DNA from: an uncultured Candidatus Actinomarina sp.
GTDB lineage: Bacteria > Actinomycetota > Acidimicrobiia > Actinomarinales > Actinomarinaceae
Length of the DNA: 43,929 bases
Assembly: GCA_902521955.1 (NCBI GenBank)
Contig: CABYTP010000007.1
Coordinates: 1-43,929, forward strand
Direction: 5' to 3'
Position 1 is the first letter of the stretch. The number at the start of each line of letters is the position of its first letter. The notes under the pieces are model-generated. The model was not told where the DNA came from. It saw only the letters and a program-made list of their open reading frames with translations, and made no database searches. Both the position numbers and the translations under genes were made by a program. Shown here piece after piece: positions 531 through 23,315 of the stretch.

Positions 531-575
531 TTTCTTATATTAAAAGAACATAATGATTAAAGTTGTAATTTGACT
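531..575. promoter_or_regulatory. Divergent promoter region between nucleotidyltransferase and LCP genes
   Basis: This 45-nt gap separates two divergent genes, so both promoters must lie here or just inside the genes. On the minus strand TAATAT (542-537) sits 6 nt before the ATG at 530, close enough for a leaderless transcript. On the plus strand CATAAT (549-554) is a 5-of-6 match to a -10 box, 21 nt before the ATG at 576. Neither side has a convincing -35 box or a Shine-Dalgarno sequence. The hexamers are visible; promoter function is inferred. Confidence 0.35.
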
Positions 576-1682
576 ATGAAATTTAATAAACAAACATTAT
601 TACTTATAGGTATTGTATTAATAGGGTTAATTGCATATTCTTTAGTTCCAAACTTTGAAAGAGAGGAATTTGATTCTGAAATCATAGAAGATATTTCTTC
701 TGGAGATATCACAACAACTACATCTAAGATTCAAGTTGAAGAAAATGATTCTAAGCCTGAGGACACTATTATTGATGCCGAAGTATTTGAGCCTTCTAAA
801 TATGACAGTTTGTTAATTAATAATAATTCAAAAAGAATAGACGAACTATTTACTTCTTATTTAATTATAGGAAGTGACGAAAGAAGTCCTAATTCATCAG
901 AAAGTAGAGGATCTGTTGATGGTAGTAGAGCTGATGTCATTTTAATTGTGATAGTTGATGGAGATTCAAATGTTTCTTTAGTCTCGTTACCAAGAGACTT
1001 GCTAATAGAAGATCCTTGTACAAAAAATATACAAAGAATTAACAGTTCGTTTATAAGTAACGGTTGTGGATCTGATGCTGAAAACTTATCAGCTGTCATA
1101 TTAAATATGACCGGTTTGAAGATAAAACACTTTGTAAAATTTAGTTTTGAAGGTTTTGAAGAGATTATAGATTCAATAGGTGGTGTTGAAATTTGTGTTA
1201 ATGAGACACAGAGGGAAGGTTACTCATTTGAAATTCAAAAAGGGTGTAATAATTTGAATGGAGAAATTGCTCTTAATTGGATAGTTTCAAGAAATACTGA
1301 AATTTTAGATGGTGAAAAATTAATTGATGAAGATGGGAAAGATGTTTCATCCTGGAAACCCATGCCAGGTGTAAGTGACTTAACAAGAATAAAGAAGCAA
1401 CAACAATTAATCCTATCTGTGATGCAGAAAGTAAACGATTTTAACTCGTTTAATAATTTTCTAAATTTTGTAAATGCCCTAGAAAATGCTTTTACAATTG
1501 ATGAAAATATTTCAGTAATAGAAGCTTCTAGATTGCTATGGGAATTTAGAGAAATCAACTTCGATAATGTTAATAAACTAACTGTACCAACATACAACTA
1601 TACAACCGAAAGTGGAGCTCAAGTATTGATTCTAAATGAAAATTTTTATGACTTTTTATCCTCAAAAGATTTGGTTGATTGA
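576..1682 (+). CDS. LytR-CpsA-Psr (LCP) family glycopolymer transferase
   Basis: 368-residue protein with one N-terminal membrane anchor (about residues 8-25), a low-complexity acidic linker to about 90, and an extracellular LCP domain. Family motifs are visible: LIIGSDER (D101, R103), SRAD (R118, D120), SLPRD (R140, D141), then FSFEGFEEIIDSIGGVEI and DLTRIKKQQQ. LCP enzymes move undecaprenyl-pyrophosphate-linked glycopolymers onto peptidoglycan outside the membrane, using the Arg and Asp residues to hold the pyrophosphate. I chose ATG at 576; an in-frame TTG at 570 is the alternative. No Shine-Dalgarno is obvious. It is flanked by a nucleotidyltransferase and a polymerase/ligase-like gene. 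Its 3' end overlaps the convergent ligase gene by 37 nt. In related actinobacteria an LCP gene often sits between nadD and rsfS; here none does. Confidence 0.9.
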   Translation: MKFNKQTLLLIGIVLIGLIAYSLVPNFEREEFDSEIIEDISSGDITTTTSKIQVEENDSKPEDTIIDAEVFEPSKYDSLLINNNSKRIDELFTSYLIIGSDERSPNSSESRGSVDGSRADVILIVIVDGDSNVSLVSLPRDLLIEDPCTKNIQRINSSFISNGCGSDAENLSAVILNMTGLKIKHFVKFSFEGFEEIIDSIGGVEICVNETQREGYSFEIQKGCNNLNGEIALNWIVSRNTEILDGEKLIDEDGKDVSSWKPMPGVSDLTRIKKQQQLILSVMQKVNDFNSFNNFLNFVNALENAFTIDENISVIEASRLLWEFREINFDNVNKLTVPTYNYTTESGAQVLILNENFYDFLSSKDLVD

Positions 1683-4042
1683 ATAAAAATTCCTGCACTT
1701 ACTAAAAATAATACAAACATATCCGGTGAATAGATCATATCATTTGTAATATTTTGTAACAAAAACATCACCATTGCTAGGTATGGAAATATATTGCTTG
1801 AATTAATAAAACTTAAAGCTTTAATCATTCCAAAAGCAATAACCAAATAGAACAAGATTGAAAACATTAATCCAAATTCAACACTAAATGTAAGGTATCC
1901 ATTATGAGCAGTGGTCAACTGGCTTAGAAAAGATGGGTCAACAATTGGTGGGCTAGTATTTGATAATTGACCATTTTGTTGAACTAATACCCCACTTCTT
2001 AAGCTTTTGTCACCAATGTTATTTGTATCAAGAAACACCCCTTCACTATCTGCCCAACTGAAAAATAATCTTCCATCGTCTGTTTCTAATTTCCAAGATT
2101 GTATCTGGCCATTAATAATTGAAGTATTTGAAATCAGAGTTTGTCTTCGTTGAGGAATCTCTGGAAAAGATAGATGCAAGATAATTTCAAAATCTTCTGA
2201 AAAATCTAAATTATTCTCAATTGCCAACCAGTATTTGTTGGGCCTAAATAATTTAATTCCATTATTTTCGAATGTGATATTAGCGTTATAGTTGTTTACT
2301 TGGTTTGGTTTAAAAACAAAATAATCTTTATTTAAATTATTTTTTGTGAACACTACATTTGTACTTTTGTTATTTGAAATAATATCAACTTCTTTAATCG
2401 TAGAATCTAGAAAAGTGTTTCCAAAAGATTGTCCATCTGAATGTCCTCCGATTTCAATATAAGCACTATTTTTATTAAGATTTATTATTGCACCACTGGT
2501 TCGTTCATATCCCACCATATCCCAATTTTCTCCGTCTTTAGATGTATAAAAGCTGATTATGCTTCTTGGTAAAATCGTATCCCTCTTATCAAATTTTAAC
2601 TTTATAAAACCTTCGACATTTCTAAAATTACACTCCTCACAAAATGTTTTATAATTATCAAAAGGTACAAAATCATTTCTAATACTTAATTGTTCAATCA
2701 TTACGGCTAGTTCTCCGACGGCTAGTTCTCTACTTTCACATTGATATCCACTAGTTTGAGTACAAGGTACATAGGTTAAGTTTTTTGGAATTTGATTGTC
2801 AACAATATTGACGTAAATATAATCCAAAAAACAATAAGTTTCTCCTCTTAAAATATTAAGATTGGAAACCTCAAAACAACCGGATTCTTCCATAGATGAT
2901 GATATTTCCAAGCTATCTATTGTGTATATTGCAGCAAAAAAGTCAGAAAATAAATCTTTTTTAACCCTTACATGTTGGCATGTAATTCTATCTTCTGAAC
3001 ATTCTGAAACAAGTTTACTCTGAACAAGAATTTCATATCCTCCACCTGAGGTTCCTATAAAAAATTCTACATTGGAATCTCTATGTTCTACAGGAGTAAT
3101 TCCTAATTCAACTTTATTTAAATTTACATTCAAATTTTGTTCTAAAATCTCAGGATTAATTGATAAAAAATAATCTTTATAAATGCTATCAACATATTTT
3201 CCTGGTCCCAATCCTCTAAATATATTTAAATTATCAAATGCAATTTTTGTTAAAAAACCTCTATCGCTTTCTTTTAGTAAAATTTCAGAATTAAAAGTAT
3301 TTAAAAACCCTAATGTGCCAAGAAATATGAAAATAAGAGCATAAACTAGTTGTTTTAGATTTCTTTTTTTCAAATAGATATATAAAAAAAATCCAAGAAA
3401 TAAGGAAAGCCAAGAACCTCTGGAATAAGTAATAAATACAAGATATAAGTTTAAAAGTGTAAGAAAAAGAAAAAACTTGTTTTTAAGTTCATTATAAAAA
3501 TGTAAACAAAGGAAAGAAAGGATAGTAAACATTCCACCTGCAACATTTGGCCCAGATCCCTGAAAGCCTGAAAGCCTTCCTCTGTTAAAAAATGTAGGGT
3601 TTTCAAAATAATAAGTAATCCATCCAATTGTGTTGTCAACAAATGATAATTGAAATAATGAAGATGCAAAATTTAATATTGAAACAAAAATAAAAGGAAA
3701 TAAAAAATATTGTAAGTCATTAGTTGTTTTTTTCTTGACAAAATCAGTAAACAAAAAGCCTGTTAAACAGTAAAAAATTAACCTAAGTACAAAAACATTA
3801 ACGCCATACAGAAATATAGAAAGAATTAGTAATAATGTAAGTGAACCCCAAAATCTAGTTACATTGTCAGATAATTCTAAAATATTTCTCTTTTTAATAA
3901 AATCGAAAAATAATATTAAGGAAAAAATTAATATTAAAAAATCCGAGAACTCAATGAAGCTAAGCCTTAGAAATCCTGGTGGTGATATTAAAGATATTGA
4001 AATAAGAGAGCCTAATAAAAATATACTTAGTTTTTCTTTCAA
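1646..4042 (-). CDS. O-antigen ligase/polymerase-like membrane protein with very large lectin-like extracellular loop
   Basis: 798 residues, about twice the usual size for this family. Residues 1-250 are a chain of hydrophobic segments with RLSGFQGSGPNVAGG (156-170) and TYSRGSW (205-211). The family motif GLGPGKY is at 277-283. The ligase-type AHNGYL, whose His is catalytic in WaaL-type enzymes, comes only at 712-717, followed by the last membrane segments. These two motifs are normally separated by a short loop; here about 430 residues intervene. They include eight cysteines (348, 355, 389, 404, 427, 435, 468, 471), a segment with FYTSKDGENWDMVGY resembling F5/8C modules, and a LamG/ConA-like stretch around 575-690. 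The start is TTG at 4042, 1 nt after the upstream tRNA; no other start fits. Likely role: polymerising a lipid-linked glycan, or ligating it, outside the membrane. Confidence 0.8.
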   Translation of the reverse strand: MKEKLSIFLLGSLISISLISPPGFLRLSFIEFSDFLILIFSLILFFDFIKKRNILELSDNVTRFWGSLTLLLILSIFLYGVNVFVLRLIFYCLTGFLFTDFVKKKTTNDLQYFLFPFIFVSILNFASSLFQLSFVDNTIGWITYYFENPTFFNRGRLSGFQGSGPNVAGGMFTILSFLCLHFYNELKNKFFLFLTLLNLYLVFITYSRGSWLSLFLGFFLYIYLKKRNLKQLVYALIFIFLGTLGFLNTFNSEILLKESDRGFLTKIAFDNLNIFRGLGPGKYVDSIYKDYFLSINPEILEQNLNVNLNKVELGITPVEHRDSNVEFFIGTSGGGYEILVQSKLVSECSEDRITCQHVRVKKDLFSDFFAAIYTIDSLEISSSMEESGCFEVSNLNILRGETYCFLDYIYVNIVDNQIPKNLTYVPCTQTSGYQCESRELAVGELAVMIEQLSIRNDFVPFDNYKTFCEECNFRNVEGFIKLKFDKRDTILPRSIISFYTSKDGENWDMVGYERTSGAIINLNKNSAYIEIGGHSDGQSFGNTFLDSTIKEVDIISNNKSTNVVFTKNNLNKDYFVFKPNQVNNYNANITFENNGIKLFRPNKYWLAIENNLDFSEDFEIILHLSFPEIPQRRQTLISNTSIINGQIQSWKLETDDGRLFFSWADSEGVFLDTNNIGDKSLRSGVLVQQNGQLSNTSPPIVDPSFLSQLTTAHNGYLTFSVEFGLMFSILFYLVIAFGMIKALSFINSSNIFPYLAMVMFLLQNITNDMIYSPDMFVLFLVSAGIFIQSTKSFEDKKS

Positions 4043-4043
4043 G

Positions 4044-4117
4044 TGGGCCTGGCAGGACTCGAACCTACGACCGACGGATTATGAGTCCGTTGCTCTAACC
4101 AACTGAGCTACAGGCCC
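4044..4117 (-). tRNA. tRNA with CAT anticodon (elongator Met or lysidine-modified Ile2)
   Basis: A complete cloverleaf can be read on the minus strand. The acceptor stem GGGCCTG/CAGGCCC is perfect, the D arm is GCTC/GAGC, the anticodon stem is ACGGA/TCCGT with loop CTCATAA, and the T arm is GTAGG TTCGAGT CCTGC with one G-U pair. Discriminator A73 is at 4044. CCA is not encoded. CAT may read AUG (Met), or AUA if TilS converts C34 to lysidine. The acceptor stem, including C4-G69, equals that of common tRNA-Ile(GAT), so Ile2 is a real option. It lies 6 nt downstream of the SCP2 gene and 1 nt upstream of the ligase-like gene. Confidence 0.95.
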
Positions 4118-15397: not shown

Positions 15398-17826
15398 TAT
15401 CCAATAAAATTTATTATTTTATCTTCAACAAAAATAATTTTTTTATAATTTTTCTTCTCTATTTGAAATTCTATTTCACAAATTTTTTCGGCTTCTTCTT
15501 TGGTAGTGCCGGTATCAATTATTATTGTATGCTTCTTTTTTCCGTTTATTTGAACGACTAATTCAAAAGTGGGATTGGTTAAATTGGCTTCGTCAAATTC
15601 TGGCCATGTAAAATCAGCTATGTTTTGATTTGTATTTAGATAATAAATTTCTGAAGATATATGGGGCGCAAAAGGATAGAGGAGGGTGCATATGTTAAAA
15701 GTAATATATTCTTTTGTTTCTTGGGATATTGCTGTTGAATTACCTAAAAAATTAGTAAGTTCAATATTGATTTTCATTAAGTCAGACACGGCAGTATTAA
15801 ATTCAAATTTATCAAGGTGTTTTGTAATACTATATATAGATTGATTAATTTTTCTAATAATTTCTAAATCTTCTTCATGTTGATTCTTAATTTCAAGTAA
15901 AGACAATTTTTCAAAATTATCCCACACCTTATTCAAGAACCTTTTAGTACCTTCAATTCCACCATCATTCCACTCAACACCATCACTAGGTGGTGCCATA
16001 AAAAGAATATACAATCTTAAAGCGTCTGCTCCATGAGTAGCAAAGTATGACTCGGGATCAACAACATTACCCTTTGATTTAGACATCTTAGTGCCACCGA
16101 AGTTAATCATTCCCTGGCTAAATAAATTATGAAAAGGTTCACTAACATCTAGCATCCCAATATCTCTTAATGCTTTCACAAAAAATCTAGAATAGAGCAA
16201 ATGTAAAATAGCATGTTCAACACCACCAATATACTGGTTAATAGGTAACCAGTCGTTAATTATCTCTTTATCAAACGGCAAATTTATATTATTTGAATCT
16301 AGGAATCTAAGAAAATACCAAGATGAATCTACAAAGGTATCCATAGTATCTGTTTCTCTTTTGCTTTCAGTACCACAATTAGGACAGGAGGTATTAACAA
16401 AATCTTTGCTTTTTGCCAATGGTGAATCTTTAGAATTTTTATAATCATCGATTTCAGGCAAAAGAACGGGCAACCTATCAAGGCTTTCAGCAACTAATCC
16501 ACATTTGCTACAGTTAATTACTGGTATGGGGCAACCCCAATACCTTTGACGACTAATAAGCCAATCTCTTAATCTAAATGTAGTTTTTTTCTCTCCAATT
16601 CCATTCATAGTAAGATGTTTTAAAATTTCAACTGAAGACTCCTCATGCGATTTTAGATTATTATATTCTCCAGAATTAATTAGAATACCTCTGTCAGTAA
16701 ACGGCTTGTCATCAATATTGATAGAATGATTTTCATCTATGATAACTTGTAAGATTTTAAGATTATAAACCTTAGCAAATTCATAGTCTCTTTCATCATG
16801 ACCGGGTACAGCCATTATTGCACCTGTACCATAATTTACTAATACATAATCTGCAACCCACAGTGGTAATTTTTCACCATTAATAGGATTCGATACAAAC
16901 AAACCTGTGTCAATACCTGTCTTTTTTTTCGAAATTGACATTCTCTCAAATTCCGATTTTAATTTTGAATTTCTGATGTATTCTTTAATCTCATCAGAAT
17001 TAGGAGAAATATCAAGAATTTTGTCAATTACTATGTGTTCTGGTGCTAAAACTGCAAAGGTCATTCCATATAAAGTATCCAGACGAGTCGTAAATACACT
17101 AAATTTTAATTCTGTATCTAAGATGTTTAGGCTGAATTCCGCTCCTTGAGATTTACCAATCCAATTTTCCTGCATTGCTTTAACGTTTGATGGCCAGTCT
17201 CCTATCTCATCCAATCCTTTAAGTAGTTCTTCAGAATATTCAGAAATTTTAAAAAACCACTGATTTAAGTTTTTTTGCTCGACATCTGCATCACATCTTT
17301 CACAGCACCCTTCAATTACCTGCTCATTAGCTAATACAGTTTTACATGATGTACACCAATTAACGGGAGCATCCTCTTTATATGCTAAATCATTTTCAAA
17401 TAACTTTATAAATAGGAACTGTGTCCACTTGTAGTAGTCCTTATCATGAGCTGCAACTTCTCTGTCCCAGTCATAAAGTGAACCTAATCTTTTTATTTGC
17501 TCTTTCATGTTAGCTATACGTTCTTCAGTAAATTTTTTCGGATGTATGCCTGTTTTAATAGCAGCATTTTCCGCTGGAAGCCCAAATGAGTCCCATCCCA
17601 TAGGTGACATTACATTAAACCCTTTTTTCTGTTTATATCTTGTTATTACATCACCAATTGTGTAATTTCTTATGTGTCCCATGTGTAAATCTCCAGATGG
17701 GTATGGATACATGCAAAGATTATAAAAATTTGTCTTACTAGAATTTATATCACAACTAGCTAAGCCACTAGTGTCCCATTGGGTCTGCCATTTAGACTCT
17801 AGGTCTTTAAAATCATAACTATCCAT
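15397..17826 (-). CDS. leuS: Leucyl-tRNA synthetase
   Basis: 809 residues. The class I HIGH motif is HMGH (48-51) after YPYPSGDL, and KMSKS is at 580-584 ([14 protein letters not shown]). Other landmarks are [15 protein letters not shown], a zinc-binding CTSCK with CCERC, and the editing domain with [19 protein letters not shown] and [15 protein letters not shown]. The anticodon-binding and C-terminal domains are present. It charges tRNA-Leu. ATG 17826 overlaps the preceding glycosyltransferase gene by 8 nt, so a housekeeping synthetase is translationally joined to a polysaccharide cluster. Confidence 0.97.
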
Positions 17827-18922
17827 TTATGTAAATGCTTTCTATCTTTTTAAACAAGACTTCCATACTATATTTTTCATTTAACAAATTATATTGGTTT
17901 AATAGTTTTTTATTTGCTGTGGTTTTATCATTCTTTATCATATCAATTGCTGACTCTATTTTTTCCTTAAAATCTCTCTGATTATCAAAAAGAAAGCCAA
18001 TTTCACTATTAAGAATTGTATTCATTGGTAAAACATTTCTTGTTATACATATTTTTGAGTGGCTCATAGCCTCTAGAAGAACTAAGCCCAATCCTTCAGA
18101 GTAAGAAGGAAAAACAAATAAATGTATTTTTGAGAAGAATTCTTTTTTATCATTTACATAATCAAGGAATTGAATATTAGAGTTTTTATCTAATTGAAAT
18201 TTATAATTTATTTTATCTAAGTAGCTTTTTTTTCCTATTCCTCCAATTAAAAGTTGTAAATTATCGTTGTTTAAATCTAAAAATAATTTTAAAAGGTCTT
18301 CAATTCCTTTATTTTTGTTGATCCTTCCCAAAAACCCTATATTAATTTTACTATTATTGTCCTCCATCTCCTTAAAAGGAGAAGGCTCGATCCAGTAATT
18401 AACTACTGAAAATTTAATTTCTGCTGAATAATCTGAAAGCCAAGTACCTACTTCACTAGAGATACAAATTATATGATTACTTTTCCTCCAAATAAATACC
18501 AAAAGTGGCATTAAGAATTTTTTCAACAACTTAAATGAAGCCTTTCCTTCAAGATATGTGTCATATTTTCCATGAATAGACACAATCCATTTTGGCTTAT
18601 GATTTAAAAATGAATTTATAGCATAAAACATTGAGTCACTTCTTGGTTGGTGTGTATGTACTATATCAAAACCCATTTTTTTTTGAATATTAAAAAGAGT
18701 TCGATAAGAAATTGGATTAAATAATCTTGGTGCATTTAATCTATATACTTTGTTGACTATCTCTTTAAATTGAGACTCCAATGAAGCCATATTTTTTTTA
18801 TCTGGCCCAATTGAAATTACATACAATTCATGTCCTTCATTTCTTTGAGCTTTAACTAAATCTAATAAATGGGTTTCTGCGCCTCCCCCTGATAATGAAT
18901 TTATAACATGACAAATTTTCAT
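17819..18922 (-). CDS. GT4-type (GT-B fold) glycosyltransferase
   Basis: 367 residues. The N-terminus [18 protein letters not shown] is the acceptor-side glycine loop of GT4 enzymes. [22 protein letters not shown] and [16 protein letters not shown] follow, with the E-x7-E pair at E276 and E284 that holds the nucleotide-sugar. It transfers a sugar from an NDP-sugar to a lipid-linked or other acceptor at the cytoplasmic membrane face; donor and acceptor cannot be told from sequence. It overlaps the DGHHR gene by 1 nt and leuS by 8 nt, and shares a run with the flippase and Wzy-like genes. Confidence 0.9.
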
Positions 18923-19569
18923 TAGTTATCAAACCTTGGAGTAATCCATGTAGACTTATATGGAAAAATATAAGCTTTCGAAAAATCTTTTATACTTAGT
19001 GCTGAGAAACGTACAACACTTTTAGAAGTGGTTACGTTATTTGGAATTGGGGAGATGAAGTTAGCTTTCATCAATTCTTTTTTATACGAATAAAGTTCTC
19101 TAATGTCCATTAATTTATCAGAGTAATATTTAGTACTATCAATTTGAATAAACATATTGCTTTGCAATTTTTTATTAGAAAATCCAAATTCTTGAATAAT
19201 TTTTGTTAAAAAAATATTTTTTTCCACTATTAATTCTGATGTATAACAGTCGATGTTCACTTGATCAATATTTATTAAAATAGTATCTAAATCTTGATTT
19301 ATTGAGTTTTCAATTACATATTGAAAACGATGATGTCCATCTAAAATATACATCTCATCTTTTAAACTCAATTCTTCTTCAATATTTTCAAAAAAAACTC
19401 CTAAAACGATTGGTGTGGCATTTAAAACTCTTGTTGTAATTTGATTTTGATCTGAAGTTTCCTCGTGGGGATAAATTATATTTTTTAAATTAAGTAGATT
19501 TAAACTTGTGGAAAAAGCTAAAACTGTAGGATCTGAAGTGCTAGCTTGTTTAAATTCTTGAATTATCAT
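18922..19569 (-). CDS. DGHHR-motif protein (ParB/Srx-fold, DUF1015/SerK-like)
   Basis: 215 residues. The clear signature is YILDGHHRFQY (D77, G78, H79, H80, R81), found in ParB/Srx-fold proteins including the free serine kinases SerK and SbnI and in DUF1015. An acidic pair (E36, E37) precedes it. There is no signal peptide or membrane helix. The gene lies 5 nt after serC, which makes O-phosphoserine by transamination, while SerK-type enzymes make the same compound from serine. That neighbourhood supports a phosphoserine-related role but does not prove one. It is much shorter than DUF1015 proteins (about 400 residues). The 3' end overlaps the glycosyltransferase by 1 nt. Function is not assigned. 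Confidence 0.65.
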   Translation of the reverse strand: MIIQEFKQASTSDPTVLAFSTSLNLLNLKNIIYPHEETSDQNQITTRVLNATPIVLGVFFENIEEELSLKDEMYILDGHHRFQYVIENSINQDLDTILINIDQVNIDCYTSELIVEKNIFLTKIIQEFGFSNKKLQSNMFIQIDSTKYYSDKLMDIRELYSYKKELMKANFISPIPNNVTTSKSVVRFSALSIKDFSKAYIFPYKSTWITPRFDN

Positions 19570-19574
19570 TAGTA

Positions 19575-20636
19575 TTACTTTACAAAGTCTTCTAATAGAA
19601 CTAAAAAATCATCGATCATTTCATCGGTTATGCTGTTGTAATTACTCACCCTTATTCCACCAACACTCCTATGGCCATTTAAGCCAATAAACCCATTTTC
19701 CACAGAATGATTTAAAAATTTTTGTGTTTTAAAGCCTTCTTTAAAATCAAAAACAATATTTGAATAACTTCTTAAGTTTTTTGGAGCTGGTAACTGAAAA
19801 TAATCATTATTTTCGTCTAAATACTGGTATATTTTATTAGCTCGTTTAGAGTTATTTTCCTCTATTTTTTTTATTCCACCAGATTTTATAATCCAATCAA
19901 GCATCTTAGACAAAACATAAATTGAGAATGTGGGTGGTGTATTGAATGAAGAATTTTTTTTAATGTGATTTTCAATATCCAGGTAACTAGTTTTAGTATT
20001 CTTTTCGTGAAAGCCTTGTCTAAATATACAAATTGTTACTCCAGGTATTCCTAAATTTTTCTGTGCTCCGGCATATATATAGGATAAATTACTCCAATCA
20101 AATTTATACGAGCATATATCAGAAGACATATCAACAATAAGCTTTTTATTTGTAAAAGTATTGAAATCTCTTATTTGTATACCTTCAATAGTTTCATTAG
20201 AAGTAAAATAAAGATATTCTTCATCAGAGTTCGCAATATCGGTAAGAGCATTCTCATATCCAATATGTTGAATATTATGATTTGAAATTTTATTTCCAAA
20301 GTAGAGTTCGAAATCAGAGTGTGTTTTTTCTCCCCATGTACCTGAAATTAAAAAAGATATATTATCAATTAGACTTTTCTTATTTACAGGTATAAAAGTA
20401 TTTTGGAAGGTTGCACCTCCTTGAATAAATATTATTTGGAAATCATCAGGAATATGAAGTATTTTACGAAGTTTACTCTTTGAAATACTGACTAATTCTT
20501 CATATGCAACACTACGATGTGATAGCTCCAAAACTGAATAACCAAGATCTTTGTAGTCAATAATTTCTTTAGAAATATTTTGTAATATCTCATTTGGAAT
20601 TTTTGATGGACCAGCTGAAAAATTATTTATCTTCAT
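19575..20636 (-). CDS. serC: Phosphoserine aminotransferase
   Basis: 353 residues, class V PLP aminotransferase. Landmarks: FSAGPSKIP at the N-terminus, SVLELSHRS, IFIQGGATFQN, the PLP lysine K193 in YAGAQKNLGIPG, and a C-terminal NGHRSVGGIRVSNYN with the substrate-binding HRxxGGxR. It converts 3-phosphohydroxypyruvate and glutamate to O-phosphoserine for serine biosynthesis. The sequence looks like the E. coli-type SerC. ATG 20636 lies inside the end of the Wzy-like gene (14-nt overlap). serA and serB are not in the window. Its place within a polysaccharide cluster is unusual. Confidence 0.93.
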   Translation of the reverse strand: MKINNFSAGPSKIPNEILQNISKEIIDYKDLGYSVLELSHRSVAYEELVSISKSKLRKILHIPDDFQIIFIQGGATFQNTFIPVNKKSLIDNISFLISGTWGEKTHSDFELYFGNKISNHNIQHIGYENALTDIANSDEEYLYFTSNETIEGIQIRDFNTFTNKKLIVDMSSDICSYKFDWSNLSYIYAGAQKNLGIPGVTICIFRQGFHEKNTKTSYLDIENHIKKNSSFNTPPTFSIYVLSKMLDWIIKSGGIKKIEENNSKRANKIYQYLDENNDYFQLPAPKNLRSYSNIVFDFKEGFKTQKFLNHSVENGFIGLNGHRSVGGIRVSNYNSITDEMIDDFLVLLEDFVK

Positions 20637-21972
20637 GACTTTCCATTTTAAACATAAGACCTAGGTACAAACCAAAAACAGGTAACAAATCTTCAAACGA
20701 AGCTAGAGAAATTGAGATTAATACAAGAAGTATTTTAAGACCATTCTTGAAATTATGGTTTAAAAAACCTAAAACAAGTAGGAAAACTAAAATTCCATAT
20801 AGTGGTCCAATTGAAAAAAAGTTAAAAAGAAAATTGTTTTGAAGATTAATATCCTCATAAAGTAAAAAATATCTACCTGTACCAAAAGATTTAGCAAGAT
20901 ATTGAATAGTTAAATACTTTGGAGAAGTTCTATTAACTAAGTAGTTTTCTCTTTCTACTTCAGTAGATAAATATTCAGTATAAAGACTATTTGTATTTTG
21001 AAAACCAAAACCAGTCCCATATTTTATAAATTGACTTGTGAAAGAGACGATATCAGATCTTTCCCTGTCCTCGAATTGAAGACTATTTAATTTATTAATA
21101 TTAAATTCAAAATCTTCAGTTGTATCAGAATTTCTTTCTAGCCCGCTATTTAAATCTTTTGATTCATCCACGGTGTATTGAGGGCATTCTAAATTAGAAG
21201 GGCTAATATCACATTCTTTAATAGGTGCAAAAAAAGTAATCAAGAAGACAATAAAAAAATATAAAACCCCTTTATCAAATTTATTTATAAATATGTCAGT
21301 AATAAAAAATAATACAACAAGTAATAATGCAAATTCACTTTTTGTTAATCCAAAAACTACGCCTGACAAAAAGTAAAAATATGTTCTAACTCCAAACTTA
21401 TAATGTAATACTAAAAAAGCTGGAAATAGGAGTGACACTAAAAATATTGGTTCCCTAAACGTACCAACCATTCTATGACTACTTGATATCCAAAAATTTG
21501 ACTGAACATCAAATCCAAGTATTCCCGTTCCTGGACGATTTCTATAAGGTTCATAAAAATTAAAAATTTGTGATACAAATGTATAAATTGAGAAAATTGA
21601 TATTACTAAATAAACTTTGTTTAAAGCTGTCAATATATCGATGTGGTTATTCAAATTAAATGTGATATACAAAATATAAACAAATGCCGTAAAACTAAAT
21701 ATTCTTAAAAAGATATAACTCAATTCAACATCAATATTTGATGTATTAATTAAAGTTGGAGACAATGAAGTTAATATGAGAATTAAAGTAATTTGATTAA
21801 GTTTAATTTTATTTTTAAGGCTCGTGAAAACAAATATTATAAATAATAAGCCATTACCAATCCATGTGAGAGGAATTGAAAAAATTTGATATGAATCTAA
21901 AAAAAGTAACAGAAGCGGAAATATATAAAGCAATTCAGGCATGGAATTTGAAAGAGATACTTTTTTTAACAT
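20623..21972 (-). CDS. Wzy/O-antigen-ligase-like polysaccharide polymerase
   Basis: 449 residues, mostly hydrophobic helices, with an extracellular loop between about residues 245 and 375. The loop holds KYGTGFGFQN, comparable to the G-x-G-x-G/F motif of the family. The position of the usual HNxYL is taken by LQNNFLFNFFSIGP, so the ligase histidine is lacking. That favours a Wzy-type polymerase over a WaaL ligase. It would join repeat units on the undecaprenyl carrier outside the membrane. ATG 21972 is preceded by AAGG. It follows the flippase by 43 nt and overlaps serC by 14 nt. Confidence 0.75.
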   Translation of the reverse strand: MLKKVSLSNSMPELLYIFPLLLLFLDSYQIFSIPLTWIGNGLLFIIFVFTSLKNKIKLNQITLILILTSLSPTLINTSNIDVELSYIFLRIFSFTAFVYILYITFNLNNHIDILTALNKVYLVISIFSIYTFVSQIFNFYEPYRNRPGTGILGFDVQSNFWISSSHRMVGTFREPIFLVSLLFPAFLVLHYKFGVRTYFYFLSGVVFGLTKSEFALLLVVLFFITDIFINKFDKGVLYFFIVFLITFFAPIKECDISPSNLECPQYTVDESKDLNSGLERNSDTTEDFEFNINKLNSLQFEDRERSDIVSFTSQFIKYGTGFGFQNTNSLYTEYLSTEVERENYLVNRTSPKYLTIQYLAKSFGTGRYFLLYEDINLQNNFLFNFFSIGPLYGILVFLLVLGFLNHNFKNGLKILLVLISISLASFEDLLPVFGLYLGLMFKMESHEDK

Positions 21973-22015
21973 TACCTTAACTTTAACTTGAGAATTTAAA
22001 TATTACTTAAGTTAT

Positions 22016-23233
22016 TTATTGAGATGCTTTAGTTTTGAAGTAAATATAAATTTCATAAAATTTTTGAAAAATCATGCCCGCAGAAATAGATATAGCAACA
22101 CCATTGAATGTTAGAGATTCAATTAACATAAATGAAAGGGCTACAAAAATTATCAAATAAATAAGTCTTCCAATTGTATGTTGTGTGATTAATTCACTTA
22201 AAAATAGGTAATGTCTTGTCCAGAAAGTTAATAAATAAGTTATGTACCCGATAAGCAGAATTAGTAATGGAGTGTAAGAAGTTATATAATCACTTCCAGC
22301 AATAAGAATAATGATATCCTCTCCGTAAATTATATAAGTTAAAATGATTCCAACTGAAATAGGAGATAAAATATTTAGAGTTAATTTACGAAAATTATAA
22401 TTGTTATCTTTATTGATTTTATTTAGCATCCAAGGTGAAAATGCAACAACAATATAATTGACTGGTTCAACCAACTTTCTAGCAACTCTATAGATACCAG
22501 CTGAGTAAAAGTCTGTTAAAAGACCAATTACCACTACATCTAACTGTGCGGGAATTAACCCTACAGCCTGATCTGTTCTGATTTTAAAGAAATTATTTTT
22601 TGATATTTCTATATATTCTCTAAAGCCAACTTTTTTATACTTATTTTTATTACTAAAGATTAGAACAAAGAAGATAATCAAGCCCGTTAAGAAACTGTGT
22701 ATAGATAAAGCTATAAAAAAATTTTCTATAGTAGGATTCTTTAAAATAAAAAATACAACTAAACCAAAACGTAACATACTCACACTACCCTCAACCAATG
22801 AATAAGTTTTCATATCCCCTGTGTATGTAAAGGTTCCTTTAAAAACTTCAAGAAGGTTTAAAAATACTCTCGAACAAATAAAAAGTAATAAATAATTAGG
22901 AATTGATTTAATATCTAGCAATTCATAGTTTGCAGCAATAATTAGTAAAGTTAACGAAAGCAAAACTGAAAATAAACCCATGAATAATTCAAAAATAATA
23001 GAACTTCTTAAAAAATTTCCATCATAACTTTTATAATTTAAAAGAACTAAATCAGAATTTCTAGAACTAAGAAACCTGAAACAAAGACCAATGATACCTA
23101 AGTAAACTCCAATAACCCCGTATGATTCAGGGCCAAGGCTTTTAGCAACAATTCTAATTTGTATAATTGCAACCACTGCAATAGTTCCCTGAGATATAAG
23201 CAGCTCTTTAGTTTCAAATAAGAATTTTTTCAT
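22016..23233 (-). CDS. Wzx-like polysaccharide flippase (MOP superfamily)
   Basis: 405 residues with about twelve hydrophobic segments. The N-terminal region GTIAVVAIIQIRIVAKSLGP then YGVIGVYLGI is typical of oligosaccharide flippases, as is FYSAGIYRVARKLVEPVNYI in the second half. It would move undecaprenyl-linked repeat units across the membrane. The frame stays open upstream into tRNA-Ala, but that stretch is tRNA sequence, so I use ATG 23233 (MKKFLFE). Only 9 nt separate it from the tRNA 3' end and no Shine-Dalgarno is visible. The Wzy-like gene follows. Confidence 0.88.
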   Translation of the reverse strand: MKKFLFETKELLISQGTIAVVAIIQIRIVAKSLGPESYGVIGVYLGIIGLCFRFLSSRNSDLVLLNYKSYDGNFLRSSIIFELFMGLFSVLLSLTLLIIAANYELLDIKSIPNYLLLFICSRVFLNLLEVFKGTFTYTGDMKTYSLVEGSVSMLRFGLVVFFILKNPTIENFFIALSIHSFLTGLIIFFVLIFSNKNKYKKVGFREYIEISKNNFFKIRTDQAVGLIPAQLDVVVIGLLTDFYSAGIYRVARKLVEPVNYIVVAFSPWMLNKINKDNNYNFRKLTLNILSPISVGIILTYIIYGEDIIILIAGSDYITSYTPLLILLIGYITYLLTFWTRHYLFLSELITQHTIGRLIYLIIFVALSFMLIESLTFNGVAISISAGMIFQKFYEIYIYFKTKASQ

Positions 23234-23242
23234 AATTTTATG

Positions 23243-23315
<73 letters not shown>

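Follow-up and report, generated by a model that had tools for sequence, protein, structure and literature searches.

An O-antigen-ligase-superfamily protein of Candidatus Actinomarina with a circularly permuted lectin-like domain in its catalytic loop

The gene at 1646-4042 of the window (the whole 43,929-nucleotide stretch of DNA analysed here, from a 942 kb genome) encodes a conserved O-antigen-ligase-superfamily protein of Candidatus Actinomarina, and residues 474-700 of this protein, which lie inside its catalytic loop, are a circular permutant of the ConA/LamG-like domain of actinophage tail fibres. From sequence comparisons we propose, with a probability of about 0.5, that the protein is a ligase-type glycosyltransferase whose lectin-like domain holds a conserved glycan acceptor, and that it works with the sole LytR-CpsA-Psr (LCP) enzyme of the genome on a wall glycopolymer.

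The gene is encoded on the minus strand, from 4042 down to 1646, like every feature of the protein given below, and forms one open frame of 798 amino acids with a TTG start. Re-translation returned exactly the frame reported in a first-pass annotation of this DNA, with the motifs named there at the same residues: GLGPGKY at 277-283 and AHNGYL at 712-717 and, between them, eight cysteines within 348-471 and TSKDGENWDMVGY at residues 500-512. The frame, motifs, orthologues and AF2 model together describe a Wzy_C/GT-C1-clan-like membrane protein with 12 predicted transmembrane helices and an insert of ∼400 residues in its external catalytic loop. Invariant alignment columns and the modelled helices place transmembrane helices 1-9 and the first part of the active site (R208, R261 and GxGxGxY at 277-283) in residues 1-284 (3191-4042), while invariant columns place the catalytic HN-G-(Y/F)-L motif (H713) and the last three transmembrane helices in residues 701-790 (1673-1942). 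All 28 full-length orthologues share R208, R261, H713, the GxGxGxY stretch and the HNG motif without change, and T710, T711, H713, N714, G715 and T718 likewise show no variation across them.

The same annotation had assigned the protein to the O-antigen ligase superfamily with an external catalytic loop, and both points are supported. The Pfam Wzy_C model (PF04932) matches the 798-residue protein by itself only weakly (29.4 bits against a cut-off of 31.7), but it matches 27 of the 28 orthologues at E<=1e-3, some of them above the cut-off (for example G031 with 33.9 bits and G016 with 32.5 bits). The full-length AF2 model (pLDDT 79.5, pTM 0.64) matches the fold of WaaL (CAZy GT121, PDB 7TPG) with a probability of 0.90 and a TM-score of 0.44 to the target, but at a weak E of 0.64. 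The helix count and the basic loops KKKTTND, ELKNK, KKRNLK and C-terminal EDKKS put R208, R261, H713 and residues 250-715 on the outside. Of the features of GT121, the protein shows two external arginines and one catalytic-loop histidine and, in its model, a WaaL-like fold with ∼12 transmembrane helices and an active site at the outer face. In WaaL, R191 and R265 bind the diphosphate and H313 activates the acceptor (PMC10920833); by inspection of order and position, R208, R261 and H713 appear to be their counterparts. A weak match to the NCBIfam IctB transporter model, far under its cut-off, reflects shared helices and was set aside.

What sets the protein apart from WaaL is the length of the catalytic loop: H713 comes 452 residues after R261, with lectin-like and SLH-like modules in the gap, whereas in WaaL H313 comes 48 residues after R265 (PMC10920833). 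Counted as intervening residues, the distance is 451 here, 451-470 in a clade of orthologues that carries the cysteines and 305-310 in a clade that lacks them. Among the matches listed for ordinary Wzy_C proteins of Acidimicrobiia, the complete profile is covered within ∼115-190 amino acids, and no comparable insert was seen among the class-wide matches listed. By sequence, the insert has no significant match in Pfam, NCBIfam or the PDB, and a search of viral contigs found no relatives.

The first-pass annotation had described the insert as lectin-like, with separate F5/8C and LamG modules. The lectin-like character stands for residues 474-700 (1943-2623), whereas the two modules turn out to be the two halves of one permuted domain. 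Modelled alone, residues 474-708 form a confident beta-sandwich of ∼15 strands (pLDDT 85.6, pTM 0.86), the fold whose absence had been named as grounds for rejecting the idea. In a Foldseek search against the PDB, 48 of the top 50 matches were concanavalin A or other Diocleae lectins, with a best E of 8e-3, all E above 1e-3, probabilities up to 0.98 and TM-scores of 0.24-0.39; the best viral structural match was a LamG-like protein (probability 0.98, TM 0.51). Relative to other legume lectins, the Diocleae lectins are themselves circularly permuted. A permutation would account for the low TM-scores (0.2-0.4) and the E-values above 1e-3, but these scores do not amount to proof.

The evidence for permutation comes from the phage domains. 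A tail-fibre domain of Arthrobacter phage Shoya was first seen as a weak match to the insert, and a reverse search from the phage domain found the gene with E=3.9e-5, one of two matches in 297 genomes. Against a profile of nine such phage LamG-like domains, hhalign gave two separate matches in the native order of the enzyme, with the halves swapped relative to the canonical N-to-C order. Residues 610-666 (2045-2215) are homologous to the N-terminal half of the phage domain (A2 137-198 on the enzyme side against phage profile 22-78, score 46.4, E=2.3e-6). Residues 477-533 (2444-2614), the segment formerly labelled F5/8C, are homologous to its C-terminal half (A2 23-60, residues ∼496-533, against profile 117-155, score 33.2, E=3e-4), and A2 4-16 matches profile 99-111 on the same diagonal. 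In 300 column shuffles the maxima were 22.3 and 18.4, compared with the observed 46.4 and 33.2. When the enzyme alignment was rotated anywhere between the two segments, the two swapped matches became one collinear match of 131 columns (score 66.1, E=1.5e-9), which identifies the lectin-like domain as a circular permutant; the E-values of the half matches and of the rotation test are those of single comparisons. There was no Pfam F5/8C (discoidin) match in the 28 members and no discoidin among the structural matches listed, and Pfam LamG matched none of the 28 inserts save one at E=0.026. The Acidimicrobiia LamG_3 (PF13385) profile, with a score of 18, proved too distant, and the phage profile was used instead. 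We noted also that the LamG/ConA-like domain of actinophage tail fibres (L119 124-1989 and L122-L129) has no Pfam LamG match in Shoya gp25 either.

Conservation is higher in the lectin-like domain than in the N-terminal core, both between clades (0.38 vs 0.31) and within the long, cysteine-bearing clade (0.54 vs 0.40). The domain has an invariant GG-x-x-DGQS loop, and its invariant polar and aromatic residues (N525, D536-S539, Y604-W605, S649-W650 and W663) suggest glycan binding.

The cysteine-rich part of the insert is of another kind. The eight cysteines (348, 355, 389, 404, 427, 435, 468 and 471; 2630-3001) are all present in each of 11 long-clade members, and none occurs in that segment of the 17 short-clade members, so that the segment is missing from more than half of the 28 orthologues. 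It is not lectin-like and resembles instead the cysteine-containing SLH repeats of Acidimicrobiia. When compared with a profile of 31 such repeats, residues 362-449 align across two repeats (score 39.4, E=1.7e-5, compared with a maximum of 17.7 in 200 shuffles), and the last repeat shares its cysteine positions. Three helix pairs in the AF2 model (333-341/362-373, 377-387/399-412 and 420-423/442-455) led us to propose that residues 325-457 (2672-3070), found in the long clade only, form what looks like a disulphide-rich, SLH-like helical trimer, its first repeat being drawn solely from the model and the cysteine spacing. The segment is below Pfam SLH detection, PF00395 having no match in the 11 long-clade members or in the genome, and it differs from known SLH repeats also in a partly lost binding motif and in lying inside a membrane enzyme. 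On the profile homology we call it SLH-like and do not file it as SLH. The pyruvyltransferase family PF04230 (CsaB-type), which makes the usual SLH ligand, has no member in 41 Actinomarina genomes, and this ligand is therefore probably not made.

The genomic setting of the gene is fixed. It converges on an LCP glycopolymer transferase gene (570-1682, plus strand; PF03816, E=1.6e-25), the 3′ ends of the two overlapping by 37 bases, and its start codon abuts the 3′ end of a tRNA-Met (4043-4117, minus strand; ARAGORN and the junction sequences). In all 28 full-length loci the gene stands directly behind tRNA-Met and converges on the LCP gene with overlapping 3′ ends. Thirty of the 41 genomes contain a single PF03816 match each, and in every orthologous locus the neighbour of the ligase-like gene is this sole LCP gene; the 11 genomes without it, all incomplete, also lack the ligase-like gene. 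LCP transferases are separate enzymes, and the tie of this one to the ligase-like protein is one of genomic pairing only.

The mechanism that we favor from these comparisons is as follows. R208 and R261 would hold the pyrophosphate of an undecaprenyl-linked glycan, while the lectin-like domain, positioned above the active site where the acceptor enters, would bind a conserved surface glycan and present one hydroxyl of it to H713. H713 would activate this hydroxyl for attack, and the glycan chain would pass to the bound acceptor in a ligase-type reaction. The product of the neighbouring LCP gene, the only one in the genome, would anchor the polymer or its acceptor to peptidoglycan, and in one clade the SLH-like trimer may provide a further surface for contact with the wall. 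The insert is located between R261, the arginine that binds the donor, and H713, the histidine that activates the acceptor, at the point where an acceptor has to come in. PMC7771536 describes the surface glycan island of the order as highly variable, whereas the lectin-like domain is conserved above the level of the N-terminal core; this suggests a conserved ligand, such as an acceptor, and not the variable glycan. No LPS acceptor is expected in Actinomarina (PMC7771536), and the role suggested for the insert in the first-pass annotation, to keep hold of the acceptor or polymer in a cell that lacks an outer membrane, is plausible.

The adjoining LCP enzyme is itself a ligase and could mean that the ligase-like protein is a polymerase instead. 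In such a Wzy-type reaction the lectin-like domain would hold the growing chain during repeat-unit addition on undecaprenyl diphosphate, and the LCP enzyme would then move the polymer to peptidoglycan. That the gene is consistently paired with the sole LCP gene fits the polymerase-then-LCP pathway of Gram-positive wall glycopolymers, and Wzy_C covers polymerases and ligases alike, which makes a polymerase a possibility to be taken seriously, albeit not a probable one. We favor a ligase because the acceptor-side residue is an invariant histidine, whereas SEDS proteins and most of the polymerase families in the same clan have aspartate or glutamate there (PMC10920833). Other Wzy_C proteins of the genome (G000 C1 and C9) are moreover candidates for the polymerase role.

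We consider it unlikely that the insert is instead a structural or docking module that binds no glycan, such as a bridge to LCP or a wall spacer. That the SLH-like part keeps few of the usual binding residues and is not accompanied by a PF04230 enzyme agrees with such a function, but the invariant polar and aromatic set of the lectin-like part exceeds the needs of a spacer. Less likely still is a PglL-like protein O-glycosylation ligase, in which the insert would dock secreted protein acceptors in place of glycans. PglL-type enzymes are members of the Wzy_C superfamily, and proteins can be ligands of LamG and SLH folds, but Pfam searches of the orthologues gave Wzy_C only and no PglL-associated model, and the homologues of the insert domain are lectin-like domains of phage tails. 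Finally, the fusion of two separate genes by assembly error, for which nothing was found in favor, is excluded since all the full-length orthologues, 28 separately assembled sequences that are 31-77% identical to the query protein, share the insert and the tRNA-Met/LCP setting at one locus.

This survey of related genomes, proposed in the first-pass annotation as a check, found the large insert in every full-length orthologue. The gene is present at least in part in 30 of 41 other genomes of the order and is held by all 8 genomes with at least 90% completeness. The insert profile had no match outside the genus in the class (353 of 395 genomes searched) or in 396 other genomes of a phylum sample, and the insert architecture was not found in Actinobacteria outside this order in the genomes searched. 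In a tree built without the insert-specific columns, the 11 long sequences, which have the cysteine segment, and the 17 short ones, which lack it, fall on either side of one branch, so that a single gain or a single loss suffices. In one congener the ligase-like gene (G041 C1 211984-213835) is broken by several in-frame stops, for which decay and sequencing error are both possible.

Among the closest known systems is WadA of Brucella (GT25-GT121 bimodular; PMC9938171, PMC10920833), likewise an O-antigen ligase with an acquired second module. The extra module of WadA is a cytoplasmic N-terminal glycosyltransferase, whereas here a binding-type domain is located inside the catalytic loop. The actinophage LamG/ConA-like domain, known from Shoya gp25 and with matching tail domains in Streptomyces, Curtobacterium and Actinoplanes phages, shares sequence homology with the insert over both halves, but its halves are in the opposite order and the enzyme is a membrane protein; a phage tail-fibre domain and an insert carried by a bacterial membrane enzyme are clearly related in sequence. 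The best structural matches, concanavalin A and other Diocleae lectins, share the lectin-type sandwich and the permuted strand order but are plant proteins with ∼10% identity and a low TM-score, and the Diocleae-like topology of the enzyme's domain was probably reached independently.

In the open-access literature we found no polymerase or ligase with a lectin or SLH module in its catalytic loop. We tentatively suggest, as a doubtful extension, that a lectin derived from a phage tail fibre, permuted and built into an O-antigen-ligase-type loop, yields a self-contained acceptor-capturing ligase that, with a single LCP enzyme, constitutes an undescribed route of glycan attachment to the wall of outer-membrane-less marine Actinobacteria. 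If true, two finishing glycopolymer steps (the lectin-bearing enzyme and LCP) could be named for the wall of the very abundant, uncultured marine Actinomarina, the catalytic loop of the O-antigen ligase superfamily would tolerate entire binding domains, and a natural circular permutation would be known outside plant lectins, in a soluble-sized domain of 230 residues.

Two further features of this DNA were observed. In nearly all of the 28 loci only 0-3 bases separate the end of tRNA-Met from a possible TTG, GTG or ATG start of the ligase-like gene, although in L010 this gene may start 16 bases further on; with the tRNA so close to the start codon, processing of its 3′ end would yield an mRNA with little or no leader. 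Elsewhere in the window, at 17819-23315, a small glycan cassette lies beside tRNA-Ala and contains a GT4 glycosyltransferase, a class-V aminotransferase, a ParB/DUF1015-like protein, a Wzx-like flippase and a Wzy-like membrane protein (20623-21972) that has no significant Pfam match.
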